From NCBI GenBank assembly GCA_025058215.1, contig JANXEO010000001.1, positions 1-64,000 of the forward strand: 64,000 nt of DNA, written 5' to 3'. Source of the DNA: Candidatus Methanomethylicia archaeon. GTDB lineage: Archaea > Thermoproteota > Methanomethylicia > Culexarchaeales > Culexarchaeaceae. Shown here one piece after another: positions 26,394-43,011 of the stretch. Below the pieces are notes generated by a model that ran no database searches, had not been told where the DNA came from, and saw only the letters and a list, made by a program, of their open reading frames with translations. The position numbers were made by a program, and so were the translations under genes. Each line of letters opens with the position of its first letter. Position 1 is the stretch's first letter.

Positions 26394-27821
26394 TCATTCA
26401 AATAAAGCTTTATCTCCACTTAAAATCTTATTTTTAAGTTCTTCTACGAGTTTGTAAGTATACATATACAAGCATTCAGATATTATCCCAATGTTAAAGG
26501 CTTTACGAAGGGAATTCATATCTAAAATTTTAATTTCACCATTGGGTTTAAAACATATGTCAACTTCTAAATCTACATATCTAATTCTATCACTATAGAT
26601 TTCAATAGGAGTATTTACATTGATATACCCACCTAAAAATGAGCCATCGACAGAATAATATTTTGAAATATAATACCATTTATCAAAGAAGATTTTAGTG
26701 ACAATTTTATCCCCAATATTTTTAGTTATATTTAAACCATCATAAACACCAGGAGATTTAACCCTTCTATAAACAATTAAACAATTACCATCAATTCTAA
26801 CTTGTTCAATATTTCCAAGAGTGAAAATTTTACCATTTAATTTAACATGTTCTAATAACTTTACCTTATCAACTAAACTCTTTCTAAAATTATTTAAGCT
26901 TTCAATTAGAGTTTCTGTTTTTATACCATTGGAAATAAGAGATTCAGCATAATCAACTATTTTAGAAGTATCTATACTCAAAACTTTAAAGTAATGATGT
27001 AAAGGTATTGTTGGAGTTACAAAATTTCTAATTGAATCCATAATCCTTTTAGATGATTGTGGGAATTCAACTATTAATAATGAGTATCCTTCACTAAGTA
27101 AACTCCTTTTTGGCGATATATTAAATAAATTCATGAGTTTATTGTATTCTGCTACTAGATTTGATATTTCATTTAATATTTCTTCATGTGATGCACTTTT
27201 AAATGAAGATCTAAAAATTATGCCAAAACCTTTAGGTAGAATTTTTTCACATTTATCTATAAGTTCACGATCTATATTAACACCCATACTTCTAGCTCTT
27301 CTACTAAGTTTTAAACCACCATCTTTAAATAAAACAGTATATTTACCAGCCAAACCTATACGTGAAGTTAAATTTGGTATATCTAAACTCAATCTACGTT
27401 TATCAACTTGAACTGGAATTTCGTTTCCCACACTTAAATTTTCACCTTCAGATATATGTAAAACACCTTTAAGATATGGTTTAATAGATACATATGCTAT
27501 ATTTCTAAATTTATCCACAGCTTCAATAATACCTTTATAAATTCCACTAACACTATAAGGTGCAATCCTAATTACAGCATCAAATAAATATCTATGTAAA
27601 ATACTTCTAATTTTATTTAAGTATTGTTTTGGTGAAAGTATGTAAACACCATGTTTATCATCCCTATCAAAAATATCCACATCATATGGTACGAAGTCCA
27701 CTTCATCATCAATATCAAATCTATCTTTAATGGCTTCCGATGGTTGAACTATTGTGCAATTTTCATTCATGAAAATTCTAGATAAGGCTGTAGCATATAT
27801 ACCTCTAATTCTAACACGCAA
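26394..27821 (-). CDS. FAU-1/AU-1 RNA-binding protein (RNase E/G-like with DUF402)
   Basis: 475 residues, TTG start at 27821 after ggagtgat. The N-terminal half resembles RNase E/G: an S1-like part (GIYKGIIEAVDKFRNIAYVSI ... GVLHISEGE), then IPVQVDKRRLSLDIPNLT and FRSSFKSASHEEILNEI. The C-terminal third is a DUF402 domain (SPGVYDGLNITKNIGDKIVTK, WYYISKYYSVDG, VDLEVDICFKPNGEIKILD). This matches Pyrococcus FAU-1, an AU-rich RNA binding protein with RNase activity in rRNA processing. It sits between two hydrogenase/complex I-type genes on the same strand, 31 bp after the L-type gene. Confidence 0.9.
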   Translation of the reverse strand: MRVRIRGIYATALSRIFMNENCTIVQPSEAIKDRFDIDDEVDFVPYDVDIFDRDDKHGVYILSPKQYLNKIRSILHRYLFDAVIRIAPYSVSGIYKGIIEAVDKFRNIAYVSIKPYLKGVLHISEGENLSVGNEIPVQVDKRRLSLDIPNLTSRIGLAGKYTVLFKDGGLKLSRRARSMGVNIDRELIDKCEKILPKGFGIIFRSSFKSASHEEILNEISNLVAEYNKLMNLFNISPKRSLLSEGYSLLIVEFPQSSKRIMDSIRNFVTPTIPLHHYFKVLSIDTSKIVDYAESLISNGIKTETLIESLNNFRKSLVDKVKLLEHVKLNGKIFTLGNIEQVRIDGNCLIVYRRVKSPGVYDGLNITKNIGDKIVTKIFFDKWYYISKYYSVDGSFLGGYINVNTPIEIYSDRIRYVDLEVDICFKPNGEIKILDMNSLRKAFNIGIISECLYMYTYKLVEELKNKILSGDKALFE

Positions 27822-30719: not shown

Positions 30720-31781
30720 ATGAACTTGTTTGGCGTATTGAGGTATGGATTCATAAATACTAAGATTAGAGGTTTAAAAAGAGAGTATATAACTTTAGAT
30801 AAATATCAAAAATTAATTGAAGCTTCGTACAATGATATCGTTAAGATATTGATGGATACACCATATGGTAAAGAGTTAATGAATATTGGAGTAGAGCCAA
30901 CCCCGGTAGAATTTGAAAAAGCATTTTTAAGAGCATTAACCAAAGCATATCTAAAAGTTTTAAGATGGCTTCCAAAGCAATCTATGAGGGTAATAGCTTT
31001 ACACATGATGAAATATGAAATTGAAAATATAAAAACAGTATTAAGACTTAAAACTTTAAATTCTCCAACAGAGAAATTAAAACAACATGTAATTCAAATA
31101 CCATTAGGAATTAAAGTTGAAGAATATGTTGAAGCCTACGAAAAATCAAAAAACTTAATGGAATTACTGAAGAATCTTATTGAAATTGGAGTGCCGATAC
31201 CATTAGATAAAATAATTAAGAAGGGAACTTTTGAGGATGTAACGATTTTAGAAGCAGAATTGGAAAAATTAATTTACGCAACGATATTGAAAGAATCTGA
31301 AAAACTTGATTCAAAAAGTTCAAAAAGTATGAGGGACCTCATAGGATTTGAAGTAGATTTAACTAATATAAAGAATACCATAAGAGCAAAGAAACTTAAT
31401 ATGTCTTGGAAAGATTTAGAAGTAAACATTATAACACCAACATATAAAGTGAAAACTGGAAAAATAAAGATAGCTTTTGAAAAAGATGATTTAAAAAGAA
31501 TGTTAGAAGAAATGATGATGAAGAATTATAGTGAATTATTGAAACCCAGTGTAGAAGTATTAGAAAAGGGGGGTTTAGAAGCATTAGAGAAAATGTTCAA
31601 TAAAGAAATTTATAAGGGTTATCAAAGAATTTGGAGGAGGAGAGGCTTTCAATATGATCTCTCATTAACATTAGCATACTTAACTAGAAAATGGATGGAA
31701 GTAAAGAATTTAAAGATAATAGTTTATTGTAAACACTTTGGATTACCAAAGCAAAGGATAATGGAGGAAATAATAGTCTAG
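30720..31781 (+). CDS. atpC: A-type ATP synthase subunit C (d subunit)
   Basis: 353 residues, ATG at 30720. Family pattern of V/A-type C (AC39/d) subunits is visible. There is an N-terminal helical stretch (GVLRYGFINTKIRGLKREYI), internal helical repeats with the MKYEIENIKTVLRLKTLN and LIGFEVDLTNIKNTIRAKK signatures, and a C-terminal FGLPKQRIMEEI. The subunit links the rotating proteolipid ring to the central stalk. The other soluble subunits (A, B, D, E, F) are not in the window, so the operon is split. It faces the repeat protein and the proteolipid genes. Confidence 0.88.
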   Translation: MNLFGVLRYGFINTKIRGLKREYITLDKYQKLIEASYNDIVKILMDTPYGKELMNIGVEPTPVEFEKAFLRALTKAYLKVLRWLPKQSMRVIALHMMKYEIENIKTVLRLKTLNSPTEKLKQHVIQIPLGIKVEEYVEAYEKSKNLMELLKNLIEIGVPIPLDKIIKKGTFEDVTILEAELEKLIYATILKESEKLDSKSSKSMRDLIGFEVDLTNIKNTIRAKKLNMSWKDLEVNIITPTYKVKTGKIKIAFEKDDLKRMLEEMMMKNYSELLKPSVEVLEKGGLEALEKMFNKEIYKGYQRIWRRRGFQYDLSLTLAYLTRKWMEVKNLKIIVYCKHFGLPKQRIMEEIIV

Positions 31782-31787
31782 TATTGG

Positions 31788-32555
31788 TTAATCAAGAAAT
31801 CTCTTAATAGCACCTTTACTTTTACTTATTGATGAAGATATTGCAGAATTCATTCTAGTTGTTGATGATGAAATTACATTCTCCATTCTAGTTGTTGATG
31901 ATGAAATTACATTCTCCATTCTAGTTGTTGATGATGAAATTACATTCTCTAATCTAGTCTTAGATGAGGAGGTTACGATGTCCAATTTAGTTTTTGAAGA
32001 TGAGATCATGGAAAGATAATTATTAAGTTTAGGTTTAGATTTCAAAAAGGTTTTATTGAAATCTTTAAATCCACTAGTCAATCTGATGTATAAATTGGTA
32101 TGCCATGATCGAACTTCACGCATAGATACAATGAAAGATTTTGAGTAGAGTATTGGTGGAAAAGCAAGTTTTCTGCGAATACGAAGACTCATAGAGAATA
32201 TGCCAGTTAAAAATACATGTAAACCTTTATATATGTAGCTTTTAACACTTAATATCTTTGATGGTTTAGATTTTAGAATAAAGGATTGTTTATCAATTAA
32301 AGAGTAAATTTTAATTAAACTTTCATCAACGTTAAACTTACTGCTACTTATGTTTTTGATACTCTCTTTAACAGAGTTCTCTATGAGCTTAGCATTTTCG
32401 TATTTGACATTTAAAGGTTTACGAATATTACTCTTAACTGTTGAATTTGCTTTAAAAATTTTTACTTTAACTTTGAGGATCATCCTTTTATACATTCTTT
32501 TTGTATGTTTAAGTAGTTCATTTAACTTCTCTAGCTTACCACTTGTGCTCATCAT
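31788..32555 (-). CDS. Unknown basic protein with a C-terminal 11-residue repeat, downstream of the ATP synthase K gene
   Basis: 255 residues, Lys/Ser-rich, no clear membrane helix apart from a mildly hydrophobic segment (GLHVFLTGIFSMSL near 109-122). Residues about 190-240 are a tandem hendecad, SSSTTRMENVI, with three identical DNA-level copies and two diverged ones (SSSKTKLDIVT, SSSKTRLENVI). Eleven-residue periodicity suggests an amphipathic helix or right-handed coiled coil. The ATG ATG start follows ggagtg, 17 bp after the proteolipid gene, so it is in that operon. Archaeal A-ATPase operons carry helical stalk subunits H/E near K, but I cannot align it with them. No function assigned. 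Confidence 0.65.
   Translation of the reverse strand: MMSTSGKLEKLNELLKHTKRMYKRMILKVKVKIFKANSTVKSNIRKPLNVKYENAKLIENSVKESIKNISSSKFNVDESLIKIYSLIDKQSFILKSKPSKILSVKSYIYKGLHVFLTGIFSMSLRIRRKLAFPPILYSKSFIVSMREVRSWHTNLYIRLTSGFKDFNKTFLKSKPKLNNYLSMISSSKTKLDIVTSSSKTRLENVISSSTTRMENVISSSTTRMENVISSSTTRMNSAISSSISKSKGAIKRFLD
31851..31949. repeat. Three perfect 33-bp tandem repeats
   Basis: Units at 31851-31883, 31884-31916 and 31917-31949 are identical by eye (each begins cattctagttg and ends attacattctc). A fourth, diverged unit follows at about 31950-31982. The repeat lies wholly inside the gene at 31788-32555 and keeps the reading frame (33 = 11 codons). Perfect copies suggest recent expansion by slippage or unequal recombination. 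Confidence 0.95.
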
Positions 32556-32572
32556 TTATGTGGGCACTCCAT

Positions 32573-33022
32573 CTATATTGTGCCTATTAACATTATGGAG
32601 ATTAATAATCCATAAATCGCTAAAGCTTCTGCTAAAACAACTGCTAAAAGTGTTTTTGTAACTATCTCAGGTTTTTCAACTCCAGCTCCAGCCATGGCAG
32701 ACCCAGTATATGCAATTGCAATTGAAGCAAGTAAACCGCACACAGCCATTACTAAACTTGCCGATAAAGCCTTCATAGCTGCTTCATATGAAGCAAAAAT
32801 TATAGAGAGCTTTCCTATGAGCATTATTGAAGTAAGTAATCCATAAATTCCTATAGCTTCAGCCAATACTACTGCTAAGAGTAGTTTTGTAACTATTTCT
32901 GGACGTTCTGTTCCAGCTCCAGCCATGGATATCCCTGCAGTTACGATTCCATATGCTGCACCAGATATTGGTATACAGCTTGAGAGTAAAACGCTCACAA
33001 GACCGATTATTGTTTCGTCCAT
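32573..33022 (-). CDS. atpK: A-type ATP synthase proteolipid subunit K (c-ring)
   Basis: 149 residues: two helical hairpins that repeat each other, PEIVTKLLLAVVLAEAIGIYGLL (41-63) and the near copy at 118-140. Each has the ion-binding carboxylate in LAEA: E55 and E132. The ring carries the ion in rotary ATP synthesis. Start ATG 33022 follows aggggga. The gene precedes the repeat-protein gene and lies 86 bp after the subunit I stop, with its own TATA-like element. A ring with both carboxylates conducts more ions per turn than one with one per two hairpins. Confidence 0.9.
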   Translation of the reverse strand: MDETIIGLVSVLLSSCIPISGAAYGIVTAGISMAGAGTERPEIVTKLLLAVVLAEAIGIYGLLTSIMLIGKLSIIFASYEAAMKALSASLVMAVCGLLASIAIAYTGSAMAGAGVEKPEIVTKTLLAVVLAEALAIYGLLISIMLIGTI

Positions 33023-33068
33023 ACCCGTCCCCCTATATAACTACTACTTACACAATAATGTTGATTTA

Positions 33069-33076
33069 TTTATAAA
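33069..33076 (-). promoter_or_regulatory. TATA-like element before the proteolipid gene
   Basis: tttataaa on the reverse strand, about 47-54 bases upstream of the ATG at 33022, leaving room for a start site about 25 bases downstream and a 20-25 nt leader holding the aggggga Shine-Dalgarno. A separate promoter after subunit I fits the need for many c-subunits per complex. Not tested. Confidence 0.5.
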
Positions 33077-33108
33077 CGTTATTTATTTATACACATATAA
33101 TAACCATT

Positions 33109-34740
33109 TTATTTAATACCCAAAGGTTTATATTCCTCTCCACCACCGCGGAAGTATTTAAAGCCAAATTCAACCCATGTAAGCCTTAATACATGTGTAA
33201 ATGAAACCAATCCTTCAAGAGCCATTATAAGGGTTATAGTCCCTATAGCTAATATAATGTAACCTGCAGCTCCAAGTGCTGGGATGACTGATGACAATAA
33301 TTGACTTAACATTCCATGTGACAATGATAATGCTAATATACGTCCATAGGAAACTGTATGTGAAAGTGAACTTATAGCTGCTTCAAATGTATGTGCAAAT
33401 CCATCTATTGGACCTTCAGTAAGGATCATGCCAATAAGCATTAAAACTACTGGAAGTACTACTAAGGGTATTGTTAAATATCCGGAAATCCATTTATCCA
33501 TGTTAAGTTTATATACAAATAATCCTAAGTACATTAATCCTAAGTAAAACCATAACCAACATGCTGAACCAAAAATTGCCTTTTTATATTCACCTTCAAG
33601 TATATCATTTATCATACTTAGAATTAATCCTAAACTTATATGTATCATTCCAACCATTAATGAAAGTTTAAACATCTTCATAGGCTCTTTCAATGGACTG
33701 AAGGCACGGCCAATTCCAGGTATAGCTTTAAGTATGAATTCTAATGGTGGATGATGTATATGGAAACCGAAGATTTCACCAAACATTAAACCTCCAAATA
33801 TTGCTGCAATACCACATAGAAGGTATAATTCAGCTCCAGACAATACTAAATTAACCATTTCACCCCCAGAGAAACCTTTACGTTTAAGCATACATGAGAA
33901 AACGCCGAATATTGCTAAGAGAAGACCATGACCTATATCTGCAAATGCTAATCCAAATAACATTGGAAAAGTTATACTTACAATTATTGTTGGATTAAGT
34001 TCATGTGGTGAAGGAATATCATAAGTTTTTATAAGAGATTCAAATGGTTTTAAAGCTTTTGGAGATTTTGAAAGAAAGGGGGGATGGTCATGTTTACTTG
34101 GATGTGAAATGGATATAACTACTGAATTATCAGTAACTCTATTTAGAGTTTCAATAACTTCATTTACTCTGTCTTCCGGAACCCAACCAAACATGTATGT
34201 GAGGAAATCACCATGAAAAACTTTATCATCTTGATCTAAAATCATTTCAAAAACGTATTTTGCTTCTGAAAGTATAGATTCATAATTTGGAAATATTTCA
34301 TACAACTTATCCTTAAGGCTAAACTTTTCTTCTCCCTCAATAAGTTTTGAAGCCTCTTTTATCTTTGAATCAAGTAAACTCAATTTATCTTCAAGTTTAG
34401 TTAAATAATCTTCATCTATCTTTATTTCTTTAGAAATAGTCCTTAGAGATTCAGCTTCAAGTCCAAGCATTCTAATTAAATTTTGAGTATTTTCCAATAC
34501 ACGTTTAAATTTATCACTTTCATTATGAAGTTTACTAAGAGATTTAATATCAATTTCCTTTCCACTTTCTTCACCTTCAATATAATGTTCCTTTATGAAA
34601 TCAACAAATTCTTCATCATCCCACCAAGCATCTAAATGTAATGTCTTCAAATTTATTAAAGCAAATTTCACACGATAATAGTAATCTTTGGGAATAATTA
34701 TCCTAAATTTACACATACTAGCAGATTTAAAGACGCTCAT
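33109..34740 (-). CDS. atpI: A-type ATP synthase subunit I (a subunit)
   Basis: 543 residues. The N-terminal 220 residues are soluble, with coiled coil (KFKRVLENTQNLIRMLGLEAE, LTKLEDKLSLLDSKIKEASK). The C-terminal half has membrane helices. Conserved stretches include PMLFGLAFADIGHGLLL, GEIFGFHIHHPPLEF, and the arginine-bearing helix SLSHTVSYGRILALSLSHGM. It forms the ion half-channels against the K ring and part of the stator. Start ATG 34740 follows ggtggcg. It leads the I-K-unknown run. Confidence 0.92.
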   Translation of the reverse strand: MSVFKSASMCKFRIIIPKDYYYRVKFALINLKTLHLDAWWDDEEFVDFIKEHYIEGEESGKEIDIKSLSKLHNESDKFKRVLENTQNLIRMLGLEAESLRTISKEIKIDEDYLTKLEDKLSLLDSKIKEASKLIEGEEKFSLKDKLYEIFPNYESILSEAKYVFEMILDQDDKVFHGDFLTYMFGWVPEDRVNEVIETLNRVTDNSVVISISHPSKHDHPPFLSKSPKALKPFESLIKTYDIPSPHELNPTIIVSITFPMLFGLAFADIGHGLLLAIFGVFSCMLKRKGFSGGEMVNLVLSGAELYLLCGIAAIFGGLMFGEIFGFHIHHPPLEFILKAIPGIGRAFSPLKEPMKMFKLSLMVGMIHISLGLILSMINDILEGEYKKAIFGSACWLWFYLGLMYLGLFVYKLNMDKWISGYLTIPLVVLPVVLMLIGMILTEGPIDGFAHTFEAAISSLSHTVSYGRILALSLSHGMLSQLLSSVIPALGAAGYIILAIGTITLIMALEGLVSFTHVLRLTWVEFGFKYFRGGGEEYKPLGIK

Positions 34741-37985: not shown

Positions 37986-39248
37986 CTAGGTAGTTATGTA
38001 ACTTCTTAAATCTATTTTAGAACCAAACATGTTTATTTTTCCATAAACACCATCGAATCCTGGAGTGATTGAGTAACGACGTTCTCTCATACATTTAATG
38101 TATAAAGCTATAGTAGAAGACAGCTTTGAAATTTCATCTATTGGAGCTTCAAGTAATACATTGAATTCAGAACCAAATCTTGAAACTAATTTGGAATATA
38201 AATTCCATATGGAACCACTATTAAGTTTATGAACTTCATCTTCGCTTATACCCATACTAAAGGCTATTATGGTTTGCAATGGTAATACTTTAATAAAATC
38301 TATGTGATCTTGAGGCATAAAACCTTTAGGTCTATCTGAAAGTTCTTCAACTCTATCTTCAACTCCTTTAGTAAGTTTTCTACCACAGATGGGACATATA
38401 TAATTTAGCTTTCTAGCCTCATTTGGAGAAAGAGGTCCCACATTACAATTTCTATGCCCAGACCAGTGATACTTCCCATATGCTGGATCAACTTCTATAG
38501 TCATTAGAAATTTACTTTTATCTCTAGATTTAATTGTATTTACAAGTTCTTTGTAATTCAATTTGTTTAAGTTAAATAAACATGCTTCTCTACCAAGTCT
38601 AAATGGATATGGAGAATGAGAATCTGAAAAGCTTAAAATTGAAAACTTATTTAATTGACTTACACACCAATTCATTTCTGGATCACTGCTTAAGCCAGTT
38701 TCAATAGCATAAATTTTATTTACTTTATCACTATAACAATCTTCAATTCTATCAACACCACTAAAAGATCCAAACATGCTCCACCATGGTGTCCATATAT
38801 GTGCTGGGAAAATTAAGCATTCAGATTCTACACTTAAAACTATATCTATAAGTTCTGAGGGGTGTATGTTAAATATTGGACGCCCATTGGAAATTACATC
38901 ACCATAACGTGATAAACAATCGGAAAGTTGTTCTGCAACTTCTAAACTTGGCATTAAAATAACGTGGTGAACTCTCCTCTTTTTACCATTAAATTCAAAT
39001 ATTGTTCCAACTTCGCTTTGAGCTATGAACATTACATGTGGATTAAGTCTATAATGATATAAACCACCATCAACACTTACAAGATTTTCCTTTAATTCCC
39101 TAAGCCAACTTGGATGAAAACAATCCCCTGTACCAAGGAGATTTAAACCTTTAATTAAAGCATATGAAACTAAAGTGGGAATATTCATTTGAAGACTAGA
39201 GCCACCACTATACTTTGAGTGTATATGTAAATCTGCATAAACTTTCAT
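37986..39248 (-). CDS. Endonuclease Q (PHP-type)
   Basis: 420 residues. PHP metal ligands: DLHIHSKYSGG at the N-terminus, GTGDCFHPSWL, and the FSDSHSPYP segment. A C4 zinc site is visible as HRNCN ... CPICGRKL. Next comes RVEELSDRPKGFMPQDHIDF, typical of archaeal EndoQ, then a C-terminal helix-hairpin-like tail. EndoQ nicks DNA 5' of uracil, hypoxanthine and abasic sites. It follows the NuoI-type gene by 37 bp on the same strand. That placement links repair of deaminated bases to the hydrogenase operon only by transcription, not by function. Confidence 0.88.
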   Translation of the reverse strand: MKVYADLHIHSKYSGGSSLQMNIPTLVSYALIKGLNLLGTGDCFHPSWLRELKENLVSVDGGLYHYRLNPHVMFIAQSEVGTIFEFNGKKRRVHHVILMPSLEVAEQLSDCLSRYGDVISNGRPIFNIHPSELIDIVLSVESECLIFPAHIWTPWWSMFGSFSGVDRIEDCYSDKVNKIYAIETGLSSDPEMNWCVSQLNKFSILSFSDSHSPYPFRLGREACLFNLNKLNYKELVNTIKSRDKSKFLMTIEVDPAYGKYHWSGHRNCNVGPLSPNEARKLNYICPICGRKLTKGVEDRVEELSDRPKGFMPQDHIDFIKVLPLQTIIAFSMGISEDEVHKLNSGSIWNLYSKLVSRFGSEFNVLLEAPIDEISKLSSTIALYIKCMRERRYSITPGFDGVYGKINMFGSKIDLRSYITT

Positions 39249-39649: not shown

Positions 39650-40600
39650 TTAAAACACCACCCCAATAAACTTACTTAATACTAATTGTAGTATTGAGAG
39701 GGGAATGAGATACTTCCAACAACTAGAAACCATTTGATCAATTCTCAATCTTGCAAATAGAGATCTAATGTAGGAACTTAATATGACCACGAACACCATC
39801 TTTAAAACAAACCATACTACTGGTGGTAAAATTGGACCACTGCCACCACCAAGAAATATTGCTGTAGCTAAAGCAGAGCCTAAAACAAGTTTTAGATCTT
39901 CTGCAAACCTTAAAAATGCAAGTTTTGGACCACAATACTCAGTTAGCCAACCAGCAACTATTTCACTTTCAGCTTCAGGAATATCAAAAGGTATACGTTC
40001 AAGTTCAGCTTGAAGAGCAACTATAAACACTATGAAACCTAATGGTTGAAGCAGAATCATTGGGATTGGTTGATTTTGAGAAATATAAGTTATAGATGTT
40101 GAACCAATATACATAACTACAGAAACTATTGAAATAAACATTGGTATTTCATAAGCTAGAAACTGAAGTATTGCTCTTGTAGCACCAATAATACTAAATC
40201 TATTTGTTGAAGTCCAACCAGCTATAAAGACAAGTATAGTGTATATTGTTAATAATGTTAATAAGAGTACTACATCACCTTCAAATGGTGGTAAAATTGA
40301 TTTACCATCTATTGGAATATATAGTGATGCAAATACTAGTATAGCGACTGCAAGTATAGGTATATTGTTAAATACTACTGAATCAACGTATGTAGGCGTA
40401 ATATCTTCTTTAGCCATAAGCTTAATAAAATCAGCTATTGGTTGTAAAATACCGCTAGGACCAGCATATAAAGGTCCAATTCTATTTTGAAATCTTGCAT
40501 AAGCTTTCCTATCAATCCATTCAAATAAAAATGCTAAAAAGGATAGGAAGCAAATTCCCGGAAATATTAGAAGTCTAAATATAAGTATTAATGGATCCAT
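39650..40600 (-). CDS. NuoH/MbhM-like membrane subunit
   Basis: 316 residues, eight predicted membrane helices. Family marks: ARFQNRIGPLYAGPSGILQPIADFIKL, the glutamate-rich loop ERIPFDIPEAESEIVAG with WLTEYCGP, and the helix LFARLRIDQMV. In complex I this subunit forms the quinone cavity and connects to the membrane arm; in hydrogenases it plays the equivalent joint without quinone. Start ATG 40600 after gaggtgt; directly after the D-type gene (3 bp). Confidence 0.92.
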   Translation of the reverse strand: MDPLILIFRLLIFPGICFLSFLAFLFEWIDRKAYARFQNRIGPLYAGPSGILQPIADFIKLMAKEDITPTYVDSVVFNNIPILAVAILVFASLYIPIDGKSILPPFEGDVVLLLTLLTIYTILVFIAGWTSTNRFSIIGATRAILQFLAYEIPMFISIVSVVMYIGSTSITYISQNQPIPMILLQPLGFIVFIVALQAELERIPFDIPEAESEIVAGWLTEYCGPKLAFLRFAEDLKLVLGSALATAIFLGGGSGPILPPVVWFVLKMVFVVILSSYIRSLFARLRIDQMVSSCWKYLIPLSILQLVLSKFIGVVF

Positions 40601-40603
40601 AAT

Positions 40604-41767
40604 TTACACCTCTAAACCATAATATTTACGACTATATCTACGAAGTTCTTCAAAATTCCAAATCCACTTTTTACCATTTTTCTGATCTATAAATAATAAT
40701 CTTTCAGTACAACAATAACATGGATCAATACTCGCAACTATAGCTGGAATATCAGCAATGTAATGTCCTTTCAACATTTCGCATAAAGCAGGTATATTTG
40801 CTAAAGTGGGAGTACGCATCTTAGTTCTATATGGAGTTTCTTTACCATCAGATTTAACATAATGTAAGAGTTCACCTCTTGGAGCTTCTACTCTAGCTGT
40901 AGCTTCACCGATAGGTGGAATACGTTTAACTTTAATATTTATAGGTCCAGGTCTCATTTTATTAAGAGCTTGTCTAATAGCTTTTATAGATTCAATAGTT
41001 TCATCAACTCTAACCATGGCTCTACCCCAAATATCACATGTTGAATAAGTTATTAAATTGAAATCTAGAGTATCATAGAGTGTATATGGATCATCAAATC
41101 TAACATCGCTTTTAATATCTGAAGCTCTTGCAATAGGACCTACAGCACATAAATCTAAAGCTTTATCCTTACTTAAAATCCCAACACCTTCAGTTCTAGC
41201 CCTTAAACTTGGATCTTCCATAATAACCTTCTTATAGTATTTAGTTCTTTCCTCAAGGAAATCTAAATTCTTCCTAATTATAGATTCCATTTGATAGGTA
41301 ATATCGTAAACCACTCCACCAATACAATTCATTGATGGCGTAACCCTATTACCGCTAATCATTTCTACAAGATCCATAACCTTTTCCCTATCTCTCCAAA
41401 CATACATGAAAAGTGTATTGAAACCAAGCTCCATACCTAAAATTCCAATCCACAATAAATGGCTATGAATCCTATTCAATTCGTTAATTATTATCCTAAG
41501 ATATTTTGCACGTTCAGGAATATCAATACCATAAAGTTTCTCTACAGCTAGAGAAAAACAAGTTGTATGTGGAACATTACATATACCACATATTCTTTCA
41601 GCTAAAAATAATCCTTGAGACCATGTTCTAAGTTCCATAGCCTTTTCTATACCTCTATGAACAAATCCAAACCTAGGCTTAACATCAATAATTAATTCAC
41701 CATCTAGAATGAAATTAAATTGAAAAGCTTCTTTAATAGCTGGATGCTGAGGACCTATTGGAATCAT
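40604..41767 (-). CDS. Group 4 [NiFe]-hydrogenase large (catalytic) subunit, NuoD type
   Basis: 387 residues. Both nickel-ligand motifs are present: L1 R58-x-C60-G-x-C63-x3-H67 (ERICGICNVPH) and L2 D348-P-C350-x2-C353 (SIDPCYCCTER). NuoD and FpoD of complex I lack them. The rest is a typical NuoD-like scaffold (GPQHPA, GFVHRGIEKAM, NRIHSHLLWIG, APRGELLHYV). So this subunit should hold a NiFe(CN)2CO site and make or oxidise H2. Short N-terminus, ATG 41767. Like other group 4 subunits it extends only 34 residues past the last cysteine, so whether maturation requires a C-terminal cleavage cannot be read here. Subgroup not assigned. Confidence 0.9.
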   Translation of the reverse strand: MIPIGPQHPAIKEAFQFNFILDGELIIDVKPRFGFVHRGIEKAMELRTWSQGLFLAERICGICNVPHTTCFSLAVEKLYGIDIPERAKYLRIIINELNRIHSHLLWIGILGMELGFNTLFMYVWRDREKVMDLVEMISGNRVTPSMNCIGGVVYDITYQMESIIRKNLDFLEERTKYYKKVIMEDPSLRARTEGVGILSKDKALDLCAVGPIARASDIKSDVRFDDPYTLYDTLDFNLITYSTCDIWGRAMVRVDETIESIKAIRQALNKMRPGPINIKVKRIPPIGEATARVEAPRGELLHYVKSDGKETPYRTKMRTPTLANIPALCEMLKGHYIADIPAIVASIDPCYCCTERLLFIDQKNGKKWIWNFEELRRYSRKYYGLEV

Positions 41768-41780
41768 ATAGTAGCTCAGA

Positions 41781-42242
41781 TTATTTCACCTCCACCTTCC
41801 AGTCTTTCCTAAGGGGATAAACTTTTTCAGGCCAATCATCAGGTAATATAAGTCTTTCAAGTGATGGATGACCATCAAAAACAACACCCAATATATCATG
41901 AACCTCCCTCTCGTATAGAACAGCTCCAGGTAAAAGTGAAACTATAGATTGTATATGAGGATTTTCTCTTGAAATTTTAACTTTAACATTAACTAAAACT
42001 CTACGGTCAATTGGGGATAAATGGTAAATTAATTCAATAGAATCACCAAGATCAGTTCCAGTTATAGTAACTATATGTTTAAGATGATATTTATCCTTTA
42101 AATAACATATTACATCATGTAGAATCTTAGTATCAATACTGATGTAAACACTTCTTGGACCATCGGGTTTATAATCAAGAATCATATTTGGAAAAAATGC
42201 CATTAAATCTTTAATTATCATACTTAATTGTGGAATTAACAT
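41781..42242 (-). CDS. NuoC/MbhK-like subunit
   Basis: 153 residues, family pattern YHLSPIDRRVLVNVKV, then LLPGAVLYEREVHDILGVVFDGHPSLERLILPDDWP. It forms the 30-kDa-type structural subunit that packs on the D-type subunit. ATG 42242 follows gaggtg. It lies 13 bp upstream of the large-subunit gene, and 9 bp downstream of the B-type gene. Separate from D, unlike the C/D fusions of some complexes. Confidence 0.9.
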   Translation of the reverse strand: MLIPQLSMIIKDLMAFFPNMILDYKPDGPRSVYISIDTKILHDVICYLKDKYHLKHIVTITGTDLGDSIELIYHLSPIDRRVLVNVKVKISRENPHIQSIVSLLPGAVLYEREVHDILGVVFDGHPSLERLILPDDWPEKVYPLRKDWKVEVK

Positions 42243-42251
42243 GAATACACC

Positions 42252-42677
42252 TCAACCAGATTTCAATTTAGCAATAAGTTTAGCTACACCATCAATAACA
42301 GCTTCAGGTCTAACTGGGCATCCAGGAATATACATACTAACAGGGATAACTTTATCTATACCACCAAGAACATTATAGCAACCCCAATAAACACCACCTG
42401 AAATTGCACATGTACCAGCAGCAATAACAAATTTTGGATCAGGCATTTGCTCATATATTCTTATAAGCCTAGGTGCCACTTGCCTAGTAACAGCTCCTGT
42501 AACTACTAATGCATCAGCATGCCTAGGACTACCTTTAAGTAGGATTCCAAAACGTTCCACATCATATTTAGGAGCTAAAGCTGCTAAAACTTCAATATCA
42601 CATGCATTACAAGCTCCAGTACACATGTATAATATCCATGGACTTCTAATCCTAGACCAAGCAACAATTGAAACCAT
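42252..42677 (-). CDS. Group 4 [NiFe]-hydrogenase small subunit, NuoB type
   Basis: 141 residues. Proximal [4Fe-4S] ligands: C23-x2-C26 in GACNACDIE, C90 in AAGTCAISGG and C120 in PGCPVRP. Complex I NuoB has adjacent cysteines (CC) at the first site; the CxxCDxE spacing is that of group 4 hydrogenases. It passes electrons from the I-type subunit to the NiFe site. ATG 42677, ggtg Shine-Dalgarno. It follows the A-type gene by 4 bp. Confidence 0.92.
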   Translation of the reverse strand: MVSIVAWSRIRSPWILYMCTGACNACDIEVLAALAPKYDVERFGILLKGSPRHADALVVTGAVTRQVAPRLIRIYEQMPDPKFVIAAGTCAISGGVYWGCYNVLGGIDKVIPVSMYIPGCPVRPEAVIDGVAKLIAKLKSG

Positions 42678-42681
42678 AAGG

Positions 42682-43011
42682 TCACCTTCTTGGAAGCATA
42701 ATCAAAGCTGAAAGTATAATACAAATATATATCATGAAGTAAATTATGTTTGCATTAAATGATAAGAGTAATATGAAAATTGCAACATCGAATATCGTAA
42801 AGTAAATAGCATACTTATATAATTGAACATTTAATTGAATCTTTTCAGGTGGAAATTTATCAATACCTTCACCACAAGCATAAGGTTCTAAACTCATTAT
42901 ACTACGTCTAGGCTTAGGGCCAAGCCTTTTTAAACTTGTAAACAAAATATACATTAATATGAAGATCCATATGAAGATTGCAAGAGGCGAAAGAATTATT
43001 TCAAACCACAA
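42682..43011 (-). CDS. NuoA-like membrane subunit
   Basis: 109 residues, three predicted membrane helices and the loop EPYACGEGID, corresponding to the YECGE loop of NuoA/ND3. Start TTG 43011, eight bases after ggtg. It leads the A-B-C-D-H-I operon and is divergent from proS, 102 bp away. A-type subunits are constant in complex I, whereas many group 4 hydrogenases lack a clear one, so its presence with a NiFe large subunit is of interest. Confidence 0.82.
   Translation of the reverse strand: MWFEIILSPLAIFIWIFILMYILFTSLKRLGPKPRRSIMSLEPYACGEGIDKFPPEKIQLNVQLYKYAIYFTIFDVAIFILLLSFNANIIYFMIYICIILSALIMLPRR

Follow-up and report, generated by a model that had tools for sequence, protein, structure and literature searches.

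The window, a stretch of 64,000 nucleotides from a Candidatus Methanomethylicia archaeon of the order Culexarchaeales, holds genes for every one of the 11 subunit types of the complex I core (A, B, C, D, H, I, J, K, L, M and N, with J split in two), which are listed in Table 1 together with the neighbouring ATP synthase genes. The segment at 40604-43011 on the minus strand contains, in the order of transcription, subunits A, B, C and D, with H and I following downstream. The two metal-site motifs of subunit D, L1 (RICGIC; C60, C63) and L2 (DPCYCC, in the context DPCYCCTER; C350, C353), contain the four NiFe cysteines, which are invariant across 30 aligned D proteins, the others of which are 48-60% identical to window D; the cysteines of the protein are found at positions 60, 63, 350, 352 and 353, plus others. 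Subunit B carries the hydrogenase-type sequence CNACDIE, and its listed cysteines (19, 23, 26, 90, 100 and 120) include a putative ligand pattern for the proximal [4Fe-4S] cluster, C23-N-A-C26-D-I-E with C90 and C120. In subunit A, a loop alignment places a YACGE loop around C46.

Table 1. Genes of the hydrogenase complex and interleaved ATP synthase genes in the window
Feature	Coordinates	Strand	Match or remark
Subunit A (NuoA/FpoA-like), 109 aa	42682..43011	-	PF00507 1.5e-06; TTG start
Subunit B, 141 aa	42252..42677	-	PF01058 5.6e-32
Subunit C, 153 aa	41781..42242	-	PF00329 1.4e-32
Subunit D, [NiFe]-hydrogenase large subunit, 387 aa	40604..41767	-	PF00346 2.5e-74, PF00374 1.3e-14
Subunit H, NuoH-like, 316 aa, loop ERIPFDIPEAESE	39650..40600	-	PF00146 5.5e-95
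Subunit I, two [4Fe-4S] ferredoxin-like clusters, 120 aa	39287..39649	-	Fer4 2.8e-14; NuoI TIGR01971 5e-31
Subunit J1 (N-terminal half of NuoJ / MbhD-like), 83 aa	36935..37186	-	PF00499 2.3e-07; MbhD PF13244 1.7e-06
Subunit J2 (C-terminal half of NuoJ by position), 92 aa	36655..36933	-	position and conservation
Subunit K, 106 aa	36338..36658	-	PF00420 2.2e-21
Subunit N, antiporter-like, 502 aa	34836..36344	-	PF00361 1.6e-80; best E. coli match NuoN
A-type ATP synthase subunit I (a), neighbour	33109..34740	-	PF01496 1.2e-48; same place in relatives
A-type ATP synthase subunit K (c-ring), neighbour	32573..33022	-	PF00137 1e-25
A-type ATP synthase subunit C (d), neighbour	30720..31781	+	PF01992 1.9e-53
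Subunit L, antiporter-like, 724 aa	27852..30026	-	PF00361 1.7e-65, PF00662 2.8e-15, PF01010 2e-05
Subunit M, antiporter-like, 500 aa	24840..26342	-	PF00361 2.9e-73; best E. coli match NuoM

Within the membrane arm, a Pfam search gave no match for J2; the protein is conserved at 41-59% identity in the same place in four related genomes, and in other archaeal loci J2 sits between J1 and K. All three antiporter-like subunits retain charged residues: E158, K252, H390, K394 and K449 in L, which also has a long C-terminal extension and matches NuoL best in E. coli (2e-95), E151, K233, H347 and E407 in M, and E146, K171, K229 and K402 in N. Charges are retained at the positions of E. coli NuoL E144, K229 and K399, NuoM E144, K234 and E407, and NuoN E133, K217 and K395, all of which are known to matter for pumping. 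Among the ORFs of the hydrogenase block, neither an MrpE/F/G-like gene nor a NuoEFG or FpoFO input module was recognised. The earlier note on this DNA, made from its letters, had described both CxxC nickel motifs in D, a CxxCDxE pattern in B, a NuoA-like subunit with a YxCGE-like loop, and a split J, K and three antiporter-like subunits; each of these is present as described, J2 being assigned by position and conservation.

In sequence, D and B resemble hydrogenase subunits, while H, L, M and N resemble those of complex I. Among solved structures, window D is best matched by MbhL (2.2e-78), followed by HycE (1.6e-75) and Thermus Nqo4 (3.3e-71), and the best solved relative of B is MbhJ (8.3e-45). 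H matches E. coli NuoH at 1.4e-51 as opposed to 1e-25 for the Mbh M subunit, and L, M and N are each best matched by their own E. coli counterparts, NuoL, NuoM and NuoN. The fold itself gives no separation between hydrogenase and complex I, as an AlphaFold2 model of window D (pLDDT 88.9) scores alike against FHL HycE and Thermus Nqo4. When the related enzyme types are considered in turn, the NiFe cysteines that are lost in Ehr are intact in window D. Mbh carries an Mrp-type Na+ module and is without NuoA and the L/M/N trio; in the window, NuoA is present and the block has no recognised MrpE/F/G-like ORF. This group 4d enzyme (Pyrococcus furiosus, 6cfw) is the best solved relative of D and B, has a split J and evolves H2 with ferredoxin as the driving donor, but window H is far nearer to NuoH than to its Mbh counterpart. 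Complex I and the 11-subunit Fpo core share the subunit set of the window, including its complex I-type H, L, M and N; complex I, however, has a tandem CC in B, is without the NiFe cysteines in D and works with quinone or methanophenazine, whereas the window has four D cysteines and CNAC in B. Elsewhere in the same phylum, one genome (G041) encodes four D-type paralogues (L137-L140), of which L137 and L139 have intact NiFe motifs, L138 has lost its first cysteine (RVFGIC) and L140 is degenerate; these paralogues may show steps in the loss of a NiFe site.

The hydrogenase genes are distributed in several pieces among other genes, unlike an Fpo-like operon, and this layout is conserved across the order. 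Between N and L, interleaved with the hydrogenase genes, lie three genes of the A-type ATP synthase (I, K and C), and their placement (30720-34740) is shared by relatives that belong to other genera and families within the order; the catalytic A/B subunits are encoded elsewhere in the same genome (C1:263151-265355). The gene order running from M through the ATP synthase genes, N-K-J2-J1 and I-H-D-C-B-A to prolyl-tRNA synthetase is also found in G001 and G003, up to the contig end in G002, largely in G005 and in part in G006, genomes which represent three families of the order. Identity to window D is 83-85% for members of its own family and 72-74% for the two remaining families; in G001, G002, G003 and G005, where the conserved order of the block excludes a chance arrangement, it is 74-85%. 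As other genomes of the order have the layout too, it cannot be put down to misassembly, and the conserved gene order likewise speaks against its being rare. Since the subunit set is complete, we treat the scattered layout as variation. Several other genes share the region. A 420-aa PHP-like protein (37986-39248), for which a Pfam search gave no match, lies between the two main hydrogenase gene blocks and is 62-79% conserved in the order; a 255-aa protein (31788-32555) with near-repeats of SSSTTRMENVI at its end lies between atpK and atpC and is approximately 38% conserved; and a DUF402-containing RNase E/G-like protein (26394-27821) lies between L and M, as it does in relatives. The atpI, atpC and atpK genes also adjoin hydrogenase genes of this kind in a Borrarchaeum locus (L053).

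The window's assembly (G000) amounts to 452 kb and is 45.6% complete; its order is represented by seven genomes (G000-G006), four of them 91-99% complete. The maturation protein HypD is present in G001, G002, G003, G005 and G006, and was not found in the window's assembly or in G004, each less than half complete. In favour of a link between the two, G012, of the same class and 95% complete, yielded neither a D subunit of this type nor HypD. The window's genome may, however, encode further hydrogenases, so that HypD does not point specifically to the present enzyme. Searches of all seven genomes of the order for the NuoF family and for mcrA gave no match. A single NuoF-family match (G026:C32:2370-2624) occurs among 40 genomes of the class. 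Other hydrogenase genes were encountered as well: a 480-aa ORF with a weak D match in the window's own genome (G000:C1:373785-374879) is probably a group 3-type large subunit, and in G001 the D frame of a second group 4 hydrogenase is 545 aa long, with NuoA absent from its surroundings (L122; G001:C2:118643-119788).

With the subunits, metal ligands, key charged residues and gene order described above, with HypD in the more complete genomes of the order, and with no NuoF-type NADH module found there, we consider it very probable that the locus specifies an energy-converting [NiFe] hydrogenase of the Hfo type that has the complete complex I core of 11 subunits, is ferredoxin-linked and works as proposed below. 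The type itself has been known since 2021, when Loh, Herve and Brune named an 11-subunit Fpo-like hydrogenase of Bathyarchaeia Hfo, recognised the same kind of cluster in Ca. Methanomethylicus mesodigestum and Pyrodictium delaneyi, and suggested that this enzyme is the closer link to complex I; as of that year, no 4g hydrogenase had been biochemically characterised (PMC7886697). A 4g hydrogenase has also been reported in Culexarchaeia (PMC9723716). The window enzyme is an Hfo, probably of subgroup 4g: it shares the 11 subunit types, the intact L1 and L2 motifs, and a block free of NADH or F420 modules. It differs in belonging to another order of archaea and in its genes being dispersed among those for ATP synthase I, K and C, the PHP-like protein and the RNase E/G-like protein. 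Its grouping with the Hfo of Methanomethylicales and Bathyarchaeia is suggested by the trees described below. A further parallel is provided by the group 4 complex I-like hydrogenase of the Asgard archaea Freyarchaeia and Atabeyarchaeia, reported in 2024 to be encoded with ATP synthase (PMC11291895). Like the window enzyme, it combines a NiFe D with a complex I-type L, which has a long HL helix, and shares a syntenic block with ATP synthase genes, but the lineage and gene order are different and eight Nuo-like membrane genes are named (PMC11291895). In our trees, a Freyarchaeota locus (L110) groups with the Hfo set.

It is now evident that Hfo is widespread rather than rare. The earlier note had supposed that few hydrogenases carry this full set, whereas 79 examined loci have the four D cysteines, a CxxC-type B and subunit A together, a number which shows that the kind is common but not how common, as loci were picked by similarity to D. 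Some Hfo loci, from Chloroflexota and related groups (such as L075, L077, L084 and L102), have the cysteine of the subunit A loop replaced (YASGE or YGSGE), and it is therefore not essential in all Hfo.

Based upon these features, several steps can be proposed for the working of the complex. Electrons from reduced ferredoxin would enter at the two [4Fe-4S] clusters in I and travel by way of B's proximal cluster (C23, C26, C90, C120) to the NiFe site of D (C60, C63, C350, C353), where protons would be reduced to H2. This redox step, at the junction of D, B, H and A, would be coupled via H, J1/J2 and K to L, M and N, which would export H+ or Na+. Presumably, the exported ions would drive the A-type ATP synthase, three subunits of which (I, K and C) are encoded among the hydrogenase genes. 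When H2 is plentiful, the complex could reverse and make reduced ferredoxin. The simplest reading of the electron donor, product, coupling ion and direction is probably that of an ion-pumping, reversible ferredoxin-linked hydrogenase, which we infer to run towards H2 in a fermenting cell.

The direction of this reaction is the point at which the main alternative arises. The same complex could serve mainly as an H2-driven ferredoxin reductase, with the membrane potential driving H2 oxidation to supply reduced ferredoxin for biosynthesis, which is the direction proposed for the bathyarchaeal Hfo by Loh et al. (PMC7886697), and the genes fit either direction. We nonetheless regard this as unlikely for the window's lineage, given that mcrA was not found in its order and that Culexarchaeia have been described as generalists in which the 4g hydrogenase could oxidise fermentation ferredoxin and evolve H2 (PMC9723716). 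A second alternative concerns the active site itself, namely that the complex is a complex I-type ferredoxin:quinone oxidoreductase which merely retains ancestral cysteines. NuoA, the NuoH-type H with its ERIPFDIPEAESE loop and the full L, M and N would all suit such an enzyme, and window D scores above the NuoD cut-off of NCBIfam NF004739 (371 vs 360). Yet the 79 loci throughout combine the four cysteines with a CxxC-type B, whereas the complex I-type loci, E. coli included, are missing the D cysteines and have CC in B. Furthermore, the known structures of the two enzymes put the NiFe site about where the quinone head would be, and we consider a quinone-reducing enzyme highly improbable. It is similarly improbable that J-K-N, L and M form a separate Mrp-type antiporter and only A-B-C-D-H-I the hydrogenase: the PHP-like, VTT-domain and ATP synthase genes do separate the former from the latter, but L, M and N each best match their own complex I counterparts, no MrpE/F/G-like gene was recognised in the block, and many other archaea and bacteria carry the same subunits directly beside A-B-C-D-H-I. 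The ferredoxin-linked [NiFe] hydrogenase with an 11-subunit core accordingly remains our preferred reading of the locus.

The relationship of this hydrogenase to complex I was examined in trees of D alone and of B, D and H combined. The D tree (64 rows) united the complex I-type proteins in one clade (100/100) and placed window D outside, with the same outcome without the motif columns. The earlier note had named a position of D inside NuoD or FpoD as evidence against a group 4 [NiFe]-hydrogenase; D instead lies outside the NuoD clade, among rows that do not include FpoD proper, and its best solved relatives, like those of B, are Mbh subunits, in agreement with the group 4 assignment. Whether window D is sister to the NuoD clade was left open by D alone (AU p 0.237), and as D gives no resolution of this question, B, D and H were combined; trees of B or H by themselves carried part of the signal, with long branches brought together in some of them. 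The combined tree comprised 44 rows with the metal-site columns removed and with Fpo proper not among them. Its bacterial complex I rows came from the genomes of the examined bacterial loci, from E. coli, and from Sinorhizobium and Mycobacterium plasmids, while a haloarchaeal plasmid match, consisting of H alone, was left out of the trees. Complex I again formed one clade (100/100), which was joined with seven Hfo in a 21-row set (100/98): four of the window's order, AUK163, S4B6_HD70 and one of the Methanomethylicales. Hfo as a single clade was rejected (AU p 0.0007), as was a union of complex I with bacterial Hfo (p 4e-5). A smaller B+D+H tree with the metal-site columns kept gave the same result (98/97; p 0.005). 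Six-class amino-acid recoding, which controls shared thermophile composition only partly, retained the 21-row set at weaker support (SH-aLRT 88, bootstrap 74).

Given a root among the group 4 hydrogenases without A, which is an assumption, complex I would form one clade within a grade of Hfo; without that root, these sequences would place Hfo between the other hydrogenases and complex I, and nothing more. The earlier suggestion of an intermediate between ferredoxin-linked hydrogenase and complex I is supported by the B+D+H trees, but it depends on the rooting and on rows without true Fpo. A possible history, which we put forward tentatively, is that complex I descended from an archaeal Hfo-type hydrogenase already having NuoA and L/M/N, with Hfo of the Methanomethylicia type, those of the window's order included, as its closest living NiFe-bearing relatives. 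If true, the loss of the NiFe cysteines and the change from CxxC to CC in B would belong to the final stages on the way to complex I.

How respiratory complex I arose has long been asked. The present analysis adds a new lineage in which the split layout is conserved, a broad set of relatives among bacteria and archaea, and a multi-gene tree that puts the enzyme of the lineage with those nearest to complex I. An enzyme combining the whole complex I frame with a hydrogenase site separates two changes that are usually lumped together, the gain of the pump module and the loss of the metal site. As the trees would set the enzyme of the window's lineage near the base of complex I, its members offer concrete targets for structure work and for a rooted phylogeny.
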